A stretch of 64,000 nt of DNA from Deltaproteobacteria bacterium (GTDB lineage: Bacteria; Bdellovibrionota; UBA2394), in the NCBI GenBank assembly GCA_017302715.1, contig JAFLCD010000001.1, positions 447,009-511,008 on the forward strand, given 5' to 3'. Each line of letters opens with the position of its first letter. Position 1 is the first letter of the stretch. The position numbers and the translations under genes are program-made. Positions 48,152 to 63,668 of this stretch are shown one piece after another. Below the pieces are notes generated by a model. The model ran no database searches and was not told the DNA's origin. It saw only the letters and a program-made list of their open reading frames with translations.

Positions 48152-49099
48152 ATGACACAACTTACATCTGATATTTCCGTCGCTCCCACTTGGCTGTGGG
48201 CAGCTTTTTCCGTCGGTATTTTAATTCTTTTGATTATTGATTTAAGTCTTTTTGGAAAAAGCTCACATAAAAACCCTCGTAAAATAGCGCTTATCGAAAG
48301 TGGAATTTGGATCGCCATCGCTTTGCTTTTTAATCTTTGGTTTGGATTTACATACGGAAAAGAACTCGGGCTTGAGTTTTTTACCGGATATCTCGTTGAG
48401 AAGAGTTTAAGTGTCGATAATTTATTTATCATTCTTTTGATTTTTAGCGCGTTTAAAATTCCGGGCGCGTTTCAGCATCGAATTTTATTTTATGGAGTGC
48501 TTGGAGCGATTGTGCTTCGAGCTTTCTTTATTATTTTGGGAGCGCAGCTCTTGCAGTGGTTTCATTGGATTCTCTATATTTTTGGCGCCATTTTGGTTGT
48601 TACGGCGATTAAGTTTTTACGAGATACGAAAGAAAAGACAGATGTAACAGAGAGTTGGTCTTTTCGATTTTTGAAGCGCATTATTCCTACGACTTCGGTT
48701 TGCAGTGAGAATCGCTTTTTTGTGATGGAAAATGGAATTCGAAAAGCTACTCCCTTATTTTTAGCACTCGTAATGATTGAAATGACGGACCTGATTTTTG
48801 CAGTGGATTCTATTCCTGCGGTTTTTGCGATTACTCAGGATGCGTTTGTGGCTTTTGGTTCAAATATTTTAGCGGTTTTAGGGCTGCGAGCTCTTTATTT
48901 TGTCCTGGCAGATTGGGTTGGGAAGCTTCGGTATCTTAAGCCCGCACTAGCTGCGGTTTTGGGATTTATAGGAATTAAAATGCTTCTAATAGATTTTTTC
49001 AAAATTCCCAGCTCAGTCTCGCTGATCGTTATCTTTTCCATTTTATTTATCGCGGCAGTTGGTAGCTGGTACGTAGCGCGAAAAGAAGCGCCATGCTAA
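48152..49099 (+). CDS. TerC-family integral membrane protein
   Basis: The 315-residue protein has about nine transmembrane helices and TerC family motifs: VEKSLSVDNLFIILLIFSAF, RILFYGVLGAIVLRAFFI and EMTDLIFAVDSIPAVFAITQDAFVAFGSNILAVLGLRALYF, whose acidic residues in membrane helices bind metal. Many TerC proteins export Mn(II) or influence metal loading; others relate to tellurite resistance. GAAAGG lies directly ahead of the ATG. It overlaps the next gene by 7 nt. Confidence 0.92.
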   Translation: MTQLTSDISVAPTWLWAAFSVGILILLIIDLSLFGKSSHKNPRKIALIESGIWIAIALLFNLWFGFTYGKELGLEFFTGYLVEKSLSVDNLFIILLIFSAFKIPGAFQHRILFYGVLGAIVLRAFFIILGAQLLQWFHWILYIFGAILVVTAIKFLRDTKEKTDVTESWSFRFLKRIIPTTSVCSENRFFVMENGIRKATPLFLALVMIEMTDLIFAVDSIPAVFAITQDAFVAFGSNILAVLGLRALYFVLADWVGKLRYLKPALAAVLGFIGIKMLLIDFFKIPSSVSLIVIFSILFIAAVGSWYVARKEAPC

Positions 49100-49410
49100 A
49101 ACTTCAAATACTAAAAGCATTTATTGTGATCGGTTACTTCGAAGGAATTTCTTTTCTGCTCTTGTTGGGCGTCGCTATGCCGCTAAAATATATATGGGAA
49201 TCTCCAGAGTGGGTTCGAATAATTGGCATGGCTCACGGCGTTCTGTTTTTACTTTATATTGCCATCGCAACACTGGCGGCCATTCAACTCGAATGGAGTA
49301 AAAAGAAATTATTTTTTAGCTACGCGGCAGCCGTCTTGCCGCTTGGGCCCTTCTTATTTGATAAATGGTTCCTTACAAAATCAGATTGGACGAAGGCTTC
49401 AGAGTCTTAA
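49093..49410 (+). CDS. DUF3817-family membrane protein
   Basis: The 105-residue protein has three hydrophobic helices and the DUF3817 pattern: FEGISFLLLLGVAMPLKY, MAHGVLFLLYIAI and GPFLFDKWFL. Its function is unknown. It overlaps the TerC gene by 7 bp and shares its promoter. The gap that follows (49411-49490) holds the Fur box of the next operon. Confidence 0.85.
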   Translation: MLKLQILKAFIVIGYFEGISFLLLLGVAMPLKYIWESPEWVRIIGMAHGVLFLLYIAIATLAAIQLEWSKKKLFFSYAAAVLPLGPFLFDKWFLTKSDWTKASES

Positions 49411-49457
49411 CTTCAACTTAAGAACAATTCGGTTGATCCATTTAGAGGTAATCACGT

Positions 49458-49476
49458 ATTGAGAATGATTATCAAT
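49458..49476 (+). promoter_or_regulatory. Fur box in front of the PhnDCE-type operon
   Basis: ATTGAGAATGATTATCAAT is a 19-bp near-perfect palindrome (only the G at 49463 breaks symmetry). It matches the Fur 7-1-7 consensus TGATAAT-N-ATTATCA at 14 of 15 key positions. It lies 15 bp before the ATG of the substrate-binding protein gene, just upstream of the AAGGAG ribosome binding site. A Fur family gene is present in this window at 63228. Confidence 0.82.
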
Positions 49477-49490
49477 AAGGAGTATTCAAA

Positions 49491-50378
49491 ATGTTTAAAA
49501 AATTAGTCCACTTTGTTTTTTTGTTTGTCATGGTTTTTGCACTCACCCCCAAAGTTTTTGCAGATAAAAATATTACGCCCATCGTCTTTGCGTTGAAGCC
49601 CGATAAAAATCCAGACGCGATGATTGAAGAAAGAAAATCTTTAGAAGCTTTTCTTTCAAAAGAATTGCAAGCGCCTGTGAAGGTGATTGTGCCGTTGAGT
49701 TCAGCCGTTATTCTTGAAGGTTTCGCCAATGGGAGCATTGATCTCGCATTTTTGAGTTCTCTCGATATGTTAAATGCGATTGATCAAAAGTCGGCTCAAA
49801 CTCTCTTAGGAGTAAAGATAGATGGAAAAACTTTTTATGAAAGTTATTGGGTAAGTCTAAAAGATAAACCTTACAAAAATATTAAAGATCTTCGCGGCAA
49901 ACCCATTGCCTTTGCGAGCCGAACAAGTACGTCAGGTTATTTAATTCCCCATGCGAGCTTGATTAAGAAAGGATTTTTGAAAGAGAAAGAAAATCCCGAA
50001 ACCTTTTTTGGAAAAGGAAATGTTTGGTATGGCACGGGATACGTTTCAGGAATTGAACAAGTTCTTCAAGGCCAAGCCGAGGCCGCTGCCGTTAGCGATT
50101 ATGTGATCAATAAAGATAAATATTTAACACCAGAACAGAAGGCGAAATTAAAGATTGTGGATCGACAAGGTCCTATTCCAACGCATGTGATTGCGATTCG
50201 ATCTACTTTAGATAAAAAGAATCAGGATCGTCTTCGAGCGGCATTGAAGAAAATGAATATCGATCAGAATATATCTCTCAGAGATAAACTCTTTAATTCA
50301 ACTCTTGCCGAAATAAAGCAAGAGAAGCACCTAGCGGGAACTAAAGAAGCTTTGCAACTTACTGGGGCAAAACTTTGA
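49491..50378 (+). CDS. PhnD-type ABC transporter substrate-binding protein
   Basis: The 295-residue protein has a signal peptide (MFKKLVHFVFLFVMVFALTPKVFAD). The type 2 periplasmic binding fold of the PhnD/PtxB family follows: PIVFALKPDKNPDAM, IDLAFLSSLDML, KPIAFASRTSTSGYLIPHASLIKKGF and GQAEAAAVSDYVI. Family members bind phosphonate, phosphite or phosphate. A strong ribosome binding site (AAGGAG) is downstream of a Fur box, so expression probably rises under iron starvation. That does not fit a phosphonate role and suggests another ligand (inference). ATPase and permease genes follow directly. Confidence 0.88.
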   Translation: MFKKLVHFVFLFVMVFALTPKVFADKNITPIVFALKPDKNPDAMIEERKSLEAFLSKELQAPVKVIVPLSSAVILEGFANGSIDLAFLSSLDMLNAIDQKSAQTLLGVKIDGKTFYESYWVSLKDKPYKNIKDLRGKPIAFASRTSTSGYLIPHASLIKKGFLKEKENPETFFGKGNVWYGTGYVSGIEQVLQGQAEAAAVSDYVINKDKYLTPEQKAKLKIVDRQGPIPTHVIAIRSTLDKKNQDRLRAALKKMNIDQNISLRDKLFNSTLAEIKQEKHLAGTKEALQLTGAKL

Positions 50379-50379
50379 A

Positions 50380-51027
50380 GTGATTCACTCCGCTTCTTTA
50401 TTAAAAATTCAAGCGGGTGGATTGAAGCGCGGAGAGAGGTGGCTCTTTCGAGATTTGAATCTTGAAATTCCGAAGGGCCACTTTTTAGGAGTCCAAGGCC
50501 CATCTGGAATTGGAAAGACCAGCCTGCTTGAAATAATGGCTCGCACTTCGATTCTGACAGAGGGAAGGTTAGAGCGATCTTCTTCTATCGCTTGGATCGA
50601 TCAGCACTCTTCGTTAACTGCAAATCTTTCGGTCGAAGAAAATATTTTGCTGGGTGGTTTGCATAGACGTCGATGGTTTCAAACTCTTTTTGGGCTCTCC
50701 TCTTTAAAGACAGATGAAATCTCTGAGATTTTAAAATCTCTCGATCTTCAAGTTTCGCCGCATTCTAAAGTAGGATTGCTTTCAGGCGGCGAACGTCAAA
50801 GAGTTTCGATTGCAAGAGCGCTTTTTCAAAACGCTGATCTTCTGCTTGCCGATGAACCCGTGTCGATGCTGCCGGATACACTTCAAACTAAATCTCTTCA
50901 GCTTTTAAAAGATAGAACCGTCGAAGGTACGAGTGTCATCTGTGCTCTTCACAATGAGCAACTTCTTAAGATGTATGCGGATCAAATTTTGGTGATCGAT
51001 CAAAGCGGATGGAGATTGATTTCGTGA
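50380..51027 (+). CDS. PhnC-type ABC transporter ATPase
   Basis: The 215-residue protein has Walker A GPSGIGKTSLLE, Q-loop IAWIDQHSS, signature LSGGERQRVSIARALF and Walker B ADLLLADEP, with a switch His in ALHNEQL. It is shorter than many PhnC proteins (about 250 residues). It begins with GTG immediately after the substrate-binding protein stop (one base between). It would energise the transporter with the following permease. Confidence 0.92.
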   Translation: MIHSASLLKIQAGGLKRGERWLFRDLNLEIPKGHFLGVQGPSGIGKTSLLEIMARTSILTEGRLERSSSIAWIDQHSSLTANLSVEENILLGGLHRRRWFQTLFGLSSLKTDEISEILKSLDLQVSPHSKVGLLSGGERQRVSIARALFQNADLLLADEPVSMLPDTLQTKSLQLLKDRTVEGTSVICALHNEQLLKMYADQILVIDQSGWRLIS

Positions 51028-51043
51028 TTGTGAAAGATAAATT

Positions 51044-51826
51044 ATGAAAGACAGATTGATTTTTCAGAGATCCATTTCTTTTTATTTTTCATTTCTTGTT
51101 ATTGCGTCTGCTGTTTTGTGGTCCCTTCTTTCTTTTGATCTGCCAGATAGAGAATTAAATTATTTTGAAAACGGAGTGCGCTTTTTAAAAAGATTTTTTC
51201 CGCCTGATTTTTCTATATGGCGAACTGTGCTTGAGAGTTTTTTAGAAACTCTTCGCATCGCCATTTTAGCAACCCTTCTGGCAATTATTTTCTCTATTCC
51301 CATTGCTTTCTGCGGATCGAGACTTCATCGAAATGCATGGCTACGCTATTTGATACGATTCTCTTTAAATGCGATTCGCACTATTCCTAGTTTAATTTGG
51401 GCGCTTCTAGCTGTGGCTCTTGTGGGACCACATCCTTTAGCAGGTGTGATTGCGTTAAGTTTTTATAGCTTAGGTTATTTGGGAAAATTTTTTATCGATG
51501 CATTGAATGCAGTTGATTTAAATATTGCTCGTCATCTGCGAGCAACCGGCGCGCACAATATTCAAGCATTTCAGTATGGTATTTTCGCTTCGGTTAAACC
51601 CGTGATCGTCAGCCATTCGCTTTGGATGCTGGAGTATAATATTCGGTCGGCTTCCATCATTGGATATGTAGGAGCGGGAGGCCTAGGAACTTTGCTTCAC
51701 CAATACCAAGAATATTATCAATGGAACCGATTCTGTACGGTTCTGATTGTTATTTTTATTGTCGTTCTTCTCTTAGATGCTGCAAACGAAATTTATCGTA
51801 AAAAGCATCTCGTAGAGAGAACTTAA
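51044..51826 (+). CDS. PhnE-type ABC transporter permease
   Basis: The 260-residue protein has about six transmembrane helices, TLRIAILATLLAIIFSIPIAFCG and RTIPSLIWALLAVALVGPHPLAGVIALSFYSLGYLGKFFIDALNAVD. It also has the EAA-like loop GAHNIQAFQYGIFASVKP, in which the permease contacts the ATPase. It completes a three-gene importer. It converges with mscL with 6 bp between stops. Confidence 0.9.
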   Translation: MKDRLIFQRSISFYFSFLVIASAVLWSLLSFDLPDRELNYFENGVRFLKRFFPPDFSIWRTVLESFLETLRIAILATLLAIIFSIPIAFCGSRLHRNAWLRYLIRFSLNAIRTIPSLIWALLAVALVGPHPLAGVIALSFYSLGYLGKFFIDALNAVDLNIARHLRATGAHNIQAFQYGIFASVKPVIVSHSLWMLEYNIRSASIIGYVGAGGLGTLLHQYQEYYQWNRFCTVLIVIFIVVLLLDAANEIYRKKHLVERT

Positions 51827-52132: not shown

Positions 52133-52274
52133 AAATTTCCTCTCAGATACCTAAAGAACAGAATTTCAAGGCAAATGTCAGCGAGAAAAGATCATTTTCT
52201 TGGGGCGGAGCAGAATCTAATTTCCTTTGAGATTGTGATCTCTCACCTGAAAATAGAAGGTGGGGGAGGTTCGC

Positions 52275-53867
52275 ATGGGGAGCGCGTTTGATCGTGCTTT
52301 GCGAGGATCGTTTGTCGCATTTTCTGGATTCGTTCAGCTTACCTGCTTTCAGGATTTTTTAGATCGTCCTCCTGCGGGTTCAATCTGCAAAGAACATATG
52401 TTCTATGTCGATGCGACAAATGAATTCATTTCAGAAACTTCATGCCATCTCAAAAATAATCAAACTGTTTATGCCTATCAAAAGGATTCTGAGCTTCTGC
52501 TAGATATCAAAGGTGCGTCGGGTGGACAAATAGTAGGCCAAGAGGAACAATCCAATCGCACTGAAATTTTTCAAGATTGCGACAGTATGAGATCTCGCAT
52601 AGAGAATTTATCTCTTTTTGAATCTAGAAAATTTTCTATTCCTACAAATCACGAATTTGTTTCAAAAGAAAGTGTATTGCTCGTGGCTTCAGAGCAAACG
52701 TGTGCGCTTCTCGACAATGATTTGCAAGATTATATTCATACGTATCTCAGTGAAGGGCGAAATGAATCTCGAACACTTTGCATTCCTCAAGATCTCATTC
52801 AAAAAAAAGATCCATCCTTGATTCGTACTTTTTTAAAAGATCAAGTTTCAGGAATAAATGGAGTTATTCTTTTAGGTTCGGATATTCCGCCGTTTGAGTT
52901 TTTTTTAAGATCGGGTTTAGGAACTCAGTGGGTCTCTTACGATTACGGAACAACAGATTTACCTTACGGAGAATTTAATTCTCATTTCTGGAGTAAGCCG
53001 CGTTCAAAGCATTCTCCTGGAATTGCAGAAAATATTTATAAGTCCGAAAATTTTATTTATAAAATGACGTCTCCAACTTCGTTTACTTACGATCTTGATA
53101 GATTTGTTTCTAACTTTGGAAACGGGGCGTACCAACAGAAACTTTGGGTGAGTCGATGGCTATCGATGGCTGTGACGCCCGAAAATTTAAAATCAGAATT
53201 TAGAAATTTTTTAAACAGACGAAAAAATTATAAGCCTTATGATTCTCAGCGATTAGTTTTATCTCGAGGAGCTGAGAGCTTTATGTTGAATCCTGGAGAT
53301 CATAGTTTTTATTCAACGCTTTCAGATGACGTAAAATTTTGGAATTTTTTCGCGAATTTTCAAAACGAGGCGCTGATTTATCCTGAGTCAGATATGGCGA
53401 GCTTGATTAAGCAGATGGATCCGTCCACGACGATTCTCTCTTTAACCGAGCATGGAAATGCAGAAGCTATGGGAAATATTTTTCCTCAAACCATTCTGTC
53501 GCTTTCAAAACTTCCTGCGCTCGTTAATTTTGGCGGATGTGAGACGGGGGCGTGGGGATACGCGGCCGGTTCGGAGACCTCGCTCTTAGCAAGTGTCTTT
53601 AGTATTTCAGAGCCACCAATTGGAGTGATCGCAAGCCAAGGCATCACTTCGATGCCTACGTTTGGAAGGCCCGATATCGTGAACGCCGAAATTTTACTCA
53701 GCCGATGGAAGTCTGGGCAAAGCTTGGGTTCGCGCCTCATTGAAACTTTTGAAGCCAATCTTGAAGACTGGAGAACGAGACCGTTCTCGTCATTTCAACC
53801 CGCTGCTTTTCCAGCTCAACTTTTTCACACCGTTTCTATTTTCGGCGATGGTACCTTGGAAAACTAA
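52275..53867 (+). CDS. Gingipain-like (peptidase C25, clan CD) cysteine peptidase
   Basis: The 530-residue protein shows, in order, the markers of C25 peptidases: VILLGSDIPPFEF near residue 197 (like the LLVGD-IPP of gingipains), the catalytic His393-Gly394 in LSLTEHGNAEAMG, catalytic Cys422 in LVNFGGCETGAWGYA, and a terminal SIFGDGTLEN like the family's GDP-L ending. Gingipains cut after Arg or Lys; specificity here is unknown. The ATG at 52275 follows GGGGGAGG with good spacing. A hydrophobic stretch near the N-terminus may be an export signal but is not a classical signal peptide. It converges with the P1 nuclease with overlapping stops (CTAA). Confidence 0.72.
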   Translation: MGSAFDRALRGSFVAFSGFVQLTCFQDFLDRPPAGSICKEHMFYVDATNEFISETSCHLKNNQTVYAYQKDSELLLDIKGASGGQIVGQEEQSNRTEIFQDCDSMRSRIENLSLFESRKFSIPTNHEFVSKESVLLVASEQTCALLDNDLQDYIHTYLSEGRNESRTLCIPQDLIQKKDPSLIRTFLKDQVSGINGVILLGSDIPPFEFFLRSGLGTQWVSYDYGTTDLPYGEFNSHFWSKPRSKHSPGIAENIYKSENFIYKMTSPTSFTYDLDRFVSNFGNGAYQQKLWVSRWLSMAVTPENLKSEFRNFLNRRKNYKPYDSQRLVLSRGAESFMLNPGDHSFYSTLSDDVKFWNFFANFQNEALIYPESDMASLIKQMDPSTTILSLTEHGNAEAMGNIFPQTILSLSKLPALVNFGGCETGAWGYAAGSETSLLASVFSISEPPIGVIASQGITSMPTFGRPDIVNAEILLSRWKSGQSLGSRLIETFEANLEDWRTRPFSSFQPAAFPAQLFHTVSIFGDGTLEN

Positions 53868-62790: not shown

Positions 62791-63231
62791 ATGAACACTA
62801 AGCAAGACGCACTTACGATACCAACTTTCGATTTGCAAGCTCACCATAGCAAAGTCAATGTACCCACCGATTTTGATATGCGAGATCTCGCAAAAAAATA
62901 TTCTGTATTTCCTCTACGAGTGATCACGCAGAACGGTCGAAAGCGATTGTTGTTAGCGATGCGAAATCCATTTGATCATCGCGCAGTTCTGGACGCTGAA
63001 TTTCGGGCAGGGATGACCGTGATTCAAGTGCAAGCTGATGAAGCTGATATCCAGTGGCTGATCCAGACTCACTATTATGGAAGACGGTTGAGTCCGGTTC
63101 CTAACGCCGCGGATAGATCTTTAACGTTCAATGTTTTTGAACAACTTGAAATGACGACTGATTCACAAAAACAACCTGATTGGATTAATCATTTGCTTCA
63201 ACCTTTTGTGAACGACAATAAAGACAATTAA
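62791..63231 (+). CDS. Stand-alone MshEN (GspE N-terminal) domain protein
   Basis: The 146-residue protein is centred on an MshEN domain (about residues 27-100): LAKKYSVFPLRVITQNGRKRLLLAMRNPFDHRAVLDAEFRAGMTVIQVQADEADIQWLIQTHYYG. In MshE and other pilus/secretion ATPases this N-terminal domain binds c-di-GMP. Here no ATPase domain follows; the last ~40 residues are a polar tail. It may be an adaptor that senses c-di-GMP. GGGAGGGA precedes the ATG. Its last codons overlap the convergent fur gene. Confidence 0.72.
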   Translation: MNTKQDALTIPTFDLQAHHSKVNVPTDFDMRDLAKKYSVFPLRVITQNGRKRLLLAMRNPFDHRAVLDAEFRAGMTVIQVQADEADIQWLIQTHYYGRRLSPVPNAADRSLTFNVFEQLEMTTDSQKQPDWINHLLQPFVNDNKDN

Positions 63232-63668
63232 TTCTTGGGTTTGCAGCCGGCACGGTTGCACTCGCCATAGAGTTCCATGCGGTGGTCAAGAAGCGTAAAT
63301 CCAAGTTTCTTGGCCACTTCTTTTTGAAGAGTTTCGATTTTATCATTTTCGAATTCAAAAATTCTCTGACATCGCAAGCAAACAAAATGATCGTGATGAG
63401 CTTTCGAAGCCACTTCGTACCTCGCACCGCCATCTCGCATTTGAGTTTCAGTTAAAAAATTTTGTCTCTGAAGTAAACTGACGGTTCGATAAATCGTCGC
63501 GACGCCGACGCCTTTTATTTTTTCTTGAACTTCCGCAGCCAAGCTTTGAATCGTCCAGTGACCGCGATGAGCTAAAATAAATTCGACAAGGTCTTTTCGA
63601 GTTTTAGTTAAGCGAAAGCCAGAAGCTTTTAATTTTTCAAAAACAGATTGGCTTTGGCTGACTGGCAT
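63228..63668 (-). CDS. fur: Fur-family transcriptional regulator
   Basis: The 146-residue protein has a winged helix (SGFRLTKTRKDLVEFILAHRGHWTIQSLAAEV, GVATIYRTVSLLQRQNFL) and the metal-binding dimer domain. Its key residues are HHDHFVCLRCQRIFEF (His91, His92, His94, Cys97, Cys100) and a second Cys pair region near the C-terminus (CNRAGC). It is typical of Fur/PerR/Zur; ferric uptake repression is the likeliest role because a Fur box lies at 49458. Its ATG overlaps the stop of the upstream aminotransferase gene (TAATG). Confidence 0.88.
   Translation of the reverse strand: MPVSQSQSVFEKLKASGFRLTKTRKDLVEFILAHRGHWTIQSLAAEVQEKIKGVGVATIYRTVSLLQRQNFLTETQMRDGGARYEVASKAHHDHFVCLRCQRIFEFENDKIETLQKEVAKKLGFTLLDHRMELYGECNRAGCKPKN

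Follow-up and report, generated by a model that had tools for sequence, protein, structure and literature searches.

The operon and its genes

The operon lies in a window of 64,000 nucleotides, the whole stretch of DNA that was analyzed, from Deltaproteobacteria bacterium (Bdellovibrionota; UBA2394; assembly GCA_017302715.1, contig JAFLCD010000001.1), whose genome is 2.39 Mb in size and 96% complete. Genes for a substrate-binding protein (SBP), an ABC ATPase and an ABC permease follow one another in a row on one strand behind a Fur box (Table 1). The SBP scored 158.5 bits against PF12974 (cut-off 27) and 142.6 bits against TIGR01098, the general model for phosphate, phosphite and phosphonate SBPs (cut-off 112.05), and stayed below the PhnD equivalog TIGR03431 (111.6 bits, cut-off 261.1). 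The ATPase, which carries the motifs GPSGIGKT, LSGGERQR and LLLADEP, fell below the PhnC equivalog TIGR02315 (118.5 bits, cut-off 266.1), and the permease exceeded the PhnE equivalog TIGR01097 (236.7 bits, cut-off 216.7). The genome encodes no second PF12974 protein, and a model search of this 96% complete genome that detected the E. coli control returned no PhnJ (C-P lyase). No TonB receptor adjoins the operon, the sole plug-domain protein of the genome being encoded elsewhere, and a scan of the + strand 5' of the operon found no promoter consensus.

Table 1. Coordinates of the importer operon and associated features in the window.
Feature	Position	Strand	Basis
Fur box, 7-1-7 core TGAGAATGATTATCA	49460..49474 (extended 49457-49477)		Pattern match and footprints in relatives
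AAGGAG ribosome-binding site	49477..49482	+	Sequence; 8 bases before ATG, between Fur box and ATG 49491
Periplasmic SBP, 295 aa, PhnD-like fold, signal-peptide-like N-terminus	49491..50378	+	Pfam/NCBIfam models, predicted structure
ABC ATPase, 215 aa, PhnC-like, below PhnC equivalog cut-off	50380..51027	+	PF00005
ABC permease, 260 aa	51044..51826	+	PF00528; above PhnE equivalog cut-off
Fur-family regulator, 146 aa, likely repressor	63228..63668	-	Best model ferric uptake regulator, below cut-off

These scores bear on the main alternative to an iron importer, namely a Fur-controlled importer of phosphate, phosphite, phosphonate or an organophosphate. Such a compound would be needed under iron shortage, as might hold for phosphate associated with ferric iron or for an iron chelator that contains phosphorus. 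The matches to PF12974, TIGR01098 and the PhnE model favor this alternative, while the scores below the PhnD and PhnC cut-offs and the lack of PhnJ in the genome oppose it; together with the pocket and gene company described below, they leave it unlikely.

Two neighboring genes were also recorded. A TerC/Alx-type metal homeostasis gene (window 48152-49410, +), which overlaps a DUF3817 gene, lies just 5' of the Fur box, and a 535-aa ORF (window 52260-53864, +) matched no Pfam or NCBIfam model at E 0.001.

The Fur box in the window and the genome

The preliminary description reported a match to the Fur 7-1-7 consensus at 14 of 15 positions, directly ahead of the SBP gene. Both points hold: with N taken as matching, TGAGAATGATTATCA is one base off TGATAATNATTATCA, and 16 bp separate the end of the box from the ATG, the box lying in the interval between the stop of the DUF3817 gene (49410) and the SBP start. 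The core is contained in ATTGAGAATGATTATCAAT (49458-49476) and is the sole site in the window with zero mismatches to TGANAATNATTNTCA. When up to two mismatches were allowed, TGANAATNATTNTCA was no commoner in the window than expected by chance (10 found, 8.9 expected), so that only the near-perfect match is informative. The extended 21-mer TATTGAGAATGATTATCAATA matched at 49457-49477 only and had no match in 100 shuffles; a strict 19-bp Fur pattern with three mismatches allowed had none in the window.

Five places in the genome match TGANAATNATTNTCA perfectly, the window box included, four of them intergenic and one inside a gene. With up to one mismatch there are 38 places, compared with 10 for a reversed control pattern; 31 of the 33 one-mismatch Fur-like places were inspected, and 30 lay inside ORF calls. 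One of the other intergenic perfect sites precedes an FTR1/EfeU-type iron permease (L026:7671-9572), which has a cytochrome c domain in its N-terminal part. Another precedes a DUF6607 gene; this box, TGATAATCATTATCA (L008:1501-1515, G000:C17:80160), is fully palindromic, and its place ahead of the gene suggests that DUF6607 may be iron-related. The third (L007:1501-1515, G000:C17:69235) is identical to the window box over 22 bases and is flanked by a gene for a thioredoxin-like protein of 318 aa and by a divergent gene of 417 aa that has no family match.

The second Fur-family protein of the genome is PerR-like and adjoins a gene that was read from sequence as AhpC-like (alkyl hydroperoxide reductase-like), and the 7-1-7 sites of Fur relatives resemble one another. 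Both facts speak for the possibility that the box is a chance match or a PerR, Zur or Mur site and that the operon does not respond to iron. This is hardly credible in view of the footprints in relatives, which far exceed those in shuffles, and of the same box standing before feoB in three fetched regions and before the FTR1 permease in this genome. The pho/pst genes, as read from the ORF list of the window, run from 56272 on; an E. coli-type Pho box was found neither near the operon nor at the pst genes themselves, which makes it a weak test of phosphate control.

A clade of related importers

Scanning a genome collection with the single SBP sequence found nothing; a profile scan of the GTDB species collection with alignment A4 yielded 49 further loci, distributed over Bdellovibrionota (G170 and G187), Acidobacteriota, Verrucomicrobiota, Planctomycetota and two Pseudomonadota bins (named Blastochloris and Caulobacterales). 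Close SBP homologs occur in two of 368 genomes of the phylum besides the organism's own (G170, 60%; G187, 55%); a third genome has a homolog at 33%, and the remaining matches are weaker PhnD-like paralogs. The ATPase and permease genes lie 3' of the SBP gene in 47 of the 49 loci. The exceptions are L099, with an ATPase only, where the contig ends, and L131, where neither gene adjoins the SBP. Alignment A5 comprises the window and 48 of the 49 loci, L098, whose match is interrupted by stops, being left out. A tree that also included eight other PhnD-like proteins groups the 49 SBPs of A5 into one clade (98/96), to which L052 is a long-branched sister. Because ORF calling in the GC-rich loci gave many antisense shadow ORFs, tblastn was used to count receptors, ATPases and permeases.

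As to gene company, 15 of the 49 loci have a TonB receptor no farther than 5 kb away, and in 11 of them it is adjacent and on the same strand, which is a further point against a phosphorus substrate. Five receptors were scanned, and their best models were TonB-siderophore TIGR01783 or FecA, all below the curated cut-offs. In G170, a TonB gene and a heme/hemoglobin-type receptor gene that exceeds its cut-off stand beside the operon, and the same 18 kb of G187 contain a TonB-ExbB set, an ExbD-like gene and FeoB, with ExbD and FeoA in this genome read from sequence. Three further neighbors were named from sequence rather than from a model: an MFS-like transporter gene directly 3' of the operon in six acidobacterial loci (L088, L090, L091, L093, L097 and L110), about 2.4-2.5 kb after the start of the SBP match; an ExbB-like gene 3' of the operon in L127 and L128; and a Dps-like gene by L103.

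The receptor genes raise a second alternative, in which the operon imports some other TonB-receptor ligand during iron shortage, such as a heme fragment, a cobalamin precursor or an iron-free organic chelator. The PhnD-fold pocket is small and the five scanned receptors, which come from loci other than G170, are nearer to siderophore/FecA than to heme models, so that this alternative is distinctly improbable. In its favor are the heme/hemoglobin-type receptor of G170 and the variety of ligands known for the PhnD fold, which include glycerol-1-phosphate (PMC12718374) and, by the title of entry 7t1m, a sterol.

Footprints of the box in relatives

The exact half-site pattern TGAnA-N5-TnTCA occurs within 300 bp 5' of the SBP gene in 18 of 50 loci, a total that includes the window, although the window's own box is one base off this rule. 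Under the same rule, 200 dinucleotide shuffles averaged 0.055 and never exceeded 1, and the remaining 641 kb of sequence contained 13 matches. It replaced an earlier, stricter palindrome rule (9 of 50 loci) and was chosen after sites such as TGAGACTTGCTCTCA had been seen, so that the count is not blind. When windows were positioned by the homology match and 7-1-7 sites with no more than one mismatch were counted too, a box was found 5' of the SBP gene in 21 of 49 loci. In seven more, the SBP gene is preceded by a TonB-receptor gene with a box at its start; four of these seven are convincing, at -25 to -33 (L090, L091, L093 and L115), and three are weak. By the same rules, no box was found in 21 of the 49 loci, among them G170 and G187, the nearest relatives in the phylum. 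The boxes are spread over Acidobacteriota, Planctomycetota and several Verrucomicrobiota branches of the tree, loci inside one clade or branch not being independent of each other.

A search of three relatives' genomes with TGAGANTNANTCTCA matched no place but the sites of the SBP itself in two of them and none at all in the third. A wider pattern was then used across relatives' genomes, and 12 box places were fetched. Three of these stand before feoB (L160, L164 and L166) and three before TonB receptors (L156, L163 and L165), one (L161) had entered the count before as an SBP site, and five have no evident iron gene. These other box-bearing genes in the same genomes support the view that the box reads iron, and TGAGA-N5-TCTCA looks like the iron box of the Verrucomicrobiota. 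Paired Fur-type boxes were seen 5' of TonB-receptor genes in this phylum (L165:1154-1198 and L156:2015-2051).

The binding pocket

In the phosphite-binding relative TePtxB, the ligand contacts are Y55, Y100, S130, T131, S132 and H160, with a cap, Y208, that is held by D22; the ligand-binding His of the S-T-S-H arrangement is H157 in EcPhnD and H160 in TePtxB (PMC5700983). Profile alignment and the gap-free register of the helix after this His place TePtxB Y55, Y100, S130, T131 and S132 at residue 71, Y116, S146, T147 and S148 of the SBP, and H160, Y208 and D22 at Y184, H232 and D38. The resulting pocket signature consists of K36/K39, Y116, S146-T147-S148-G149, Y184 and H232. All of these residues, and W120, are invariant in the 49 members, and residue 71 is Ala or Ser in 36 of them.

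Y116 and S146-T147-S148 match the oxyanion-binding residues of PtxB, which again speaks for a phosphorus ligand. The other half of the pocket argues against one, since Tyr184 takes the place of the phosphonate/phosphite ligand-binding His, and His232 that of the PtxB cap Tyr or the PhnD Asp, in every one of the 49. Among 30 PhnD-like paralogs of the phylum, His stands at position 184 in 29, none of which has His at 232, one of these sequences being cut off before that position; L052 alone shares Tyr184 and His232. None of the 30 has a Fur box. The His at 184 and the different cap residue of the paralogs imply that the clade pocket lost the phosphonate His and gained a Tyr and a His, which would lie beside the retained oxyanion site.

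A confident AlphaFold2 model of the SBP (mean pLDDT 93.2, pTM 0.85) has as its best solved neighbors, among the matches listed, PtxB, ArrX, XAC2383, AioX, HtxB and PhnD, followed by transferrin lobes, with Z from 26.7 down to about 21. That PtxB, ArrX, XAC2383 and AioX are the closest solved structures among these matches can also be counted toward the phosphorus alternative. FbpA-type entries are not among the best 50 structure matches listed, which is no evidence of their absence, and neither PF01497 nor another iron-type SBP family is among the 23 Pfam families matched at E 1 by the 49 SBPs.

Comparison with transferrins

The likeness to transferrins lies in the type II lobe fold, with Z about 21 over 250 aligned residues, a fold that PhnD relatives share. 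The whole-family profile matches transferrin 6wb6 (E 8.1e-8) through residues 116-182, which hold the hinge strand and the anion helix. This motif is common to the whole PhnD family, so no claim of descent from transferrins is made. The region with Tyr184 and His232 alone matched no transferrin at E 10, and the transferrin profile PF00405 was matched by none of the 49 members at E 1. In hhalign comparison with hen and duck ovotransferrin, the local alignment pairs Y116 with Y431 (E 3.5e-4, probability 37.5) and the global one pairs H232 with H592 of hen ovotransferrin, in V-P-T-H (probability 11.5). Ovotransferrin D395 pairs with S89, which is Ser in 44 of 49 members, and Y524 was paired with Y184 by eye only, within one residue. 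Y431, H592, Y524 and D395 are iron ligands of ovotransferrin, and the letters at these positions agree with that numbering; for the C-lobe anion residues the letters did not agree, and their numbers are not used. The Arg that binds carbonate in transferrins is absent from the SBP.

A Tyr-Tyr-His-anion iron site is possible on this basis. In its most specific form, the SBP would be an analog of transferrin that arose within the PhnD family and holds Fe3+ on Tyr116, Tyr184 and His232 together with a synergistic oxyanion, which may be phosphate, carbonate or citrate, at S146-T147-S148-G149; a phosphorus importer would thereby have turned into a Fur-controlled ferric importer, found in at least four phyla and often behind FecA-like receptors. 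This form is put forward tentatively, and we would sooner doubt it than accept it. If true, it would illustrate how an oxyanion site can give rise to an iron site of the transferrin type without a change of fold.

Relation to known importers and proposed role

PhnDCE and PtxABC (PhnT family, TC 3.A.1.9) resemble the operon in fold, in the row of SBP, ATPase and permease, in the S-T-S motif and hinge Tyr and in the PhnE-type permease. The clade differs from them in its Fur box, its TonB-receptor company, Tyr184, His232 and the invariant K36 and K39; the position of TePtxB Tyr55 is mostly Ala or Ser, and the genome of the window lacks the PhnJ enzyme. The importer thus has the architecture of the phosphonate importer family and likely a different substrate. 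The FbpABC ferric-ion importers are alike in that a type II SBP is proposed to carry Fe3+ through the periplasm after a TonB receptor. FbpA combines Tyr, His and an oxyanion, as does the site proposed here, but belongs to another protein family. AioX and ArrX, which are sensors of arsenic compounds, are PhnD relatives that share the fold and the oxyanion site, whereas the SBP of the window has an ATPase and a permease of its own.

The genes, the box and its footprints, the gene company and the conserved residues together make it probable that the operon encodes a Fur-repressed ABC importer for iron starvation, with Fe3+ plus an oxyanion or a small ferric chelate as its ligand. Many relatives in three other phyla have an iron-control box of this kind and often adjoin iron receptors, so iron, not phosphorus, is most likely what the importer takes up. 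The pocket suggests Fe3+ with an anion, possibly bound in a transferrin-like manner, or a small ferric chelate. The earlier proposal of iron control gains support from the footprints across phyla, the box of the FTR1 permease, the feoB and TonB-receptor boxes in relatives and the changes in the pocket; on the same evidence, its suggestion of a different, perhaps iron- or siderophore-related ligand has become the best-supported reading, with the ligand itself deduced.

From this evidence we infer Fur binding, an iron response and transport as follows. Iron-loaded Fur on the box would block transcription of the three genes, and SBP, ATPase and permease would be made when iron is short. The PhnD-fold SBP, with Tyr184 and His232, would pick up periplasmic iron, either Fe3+ accompanied by a bound oxyanion or a small ferric chelate, which would then be carried inward by the PhnCE-like ATPase and permease. 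For many relatives, a FecA/siderophore-type TonB receptor encoded in the same operon would bring the ligand across the outer membrane.

Literature searches among open-licence PubMed Central papers returned none that describes a Fur- or iron-controlled PhnD-type importer in its title or opening abstract lines. If an iron importer is the right reading, the clade would add a class of iron importer to the PhnT family and would offer a path, open to testing, by which an oxyanion pocket could become an iron site. Because the SBP exceeds the cut-off of the general phosphate/phosphite/phosphonate model, surveys of bacteria in soil and water are likely to tally genes of the clade under phosphorus, whereas on this reading they would be iron genes.

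The Tyr/His pocket signature also occurs without a Fur box in a 33% relative (L081:7700-10005, -), whose ATPase and permease are fused into one protein of 475 aa.
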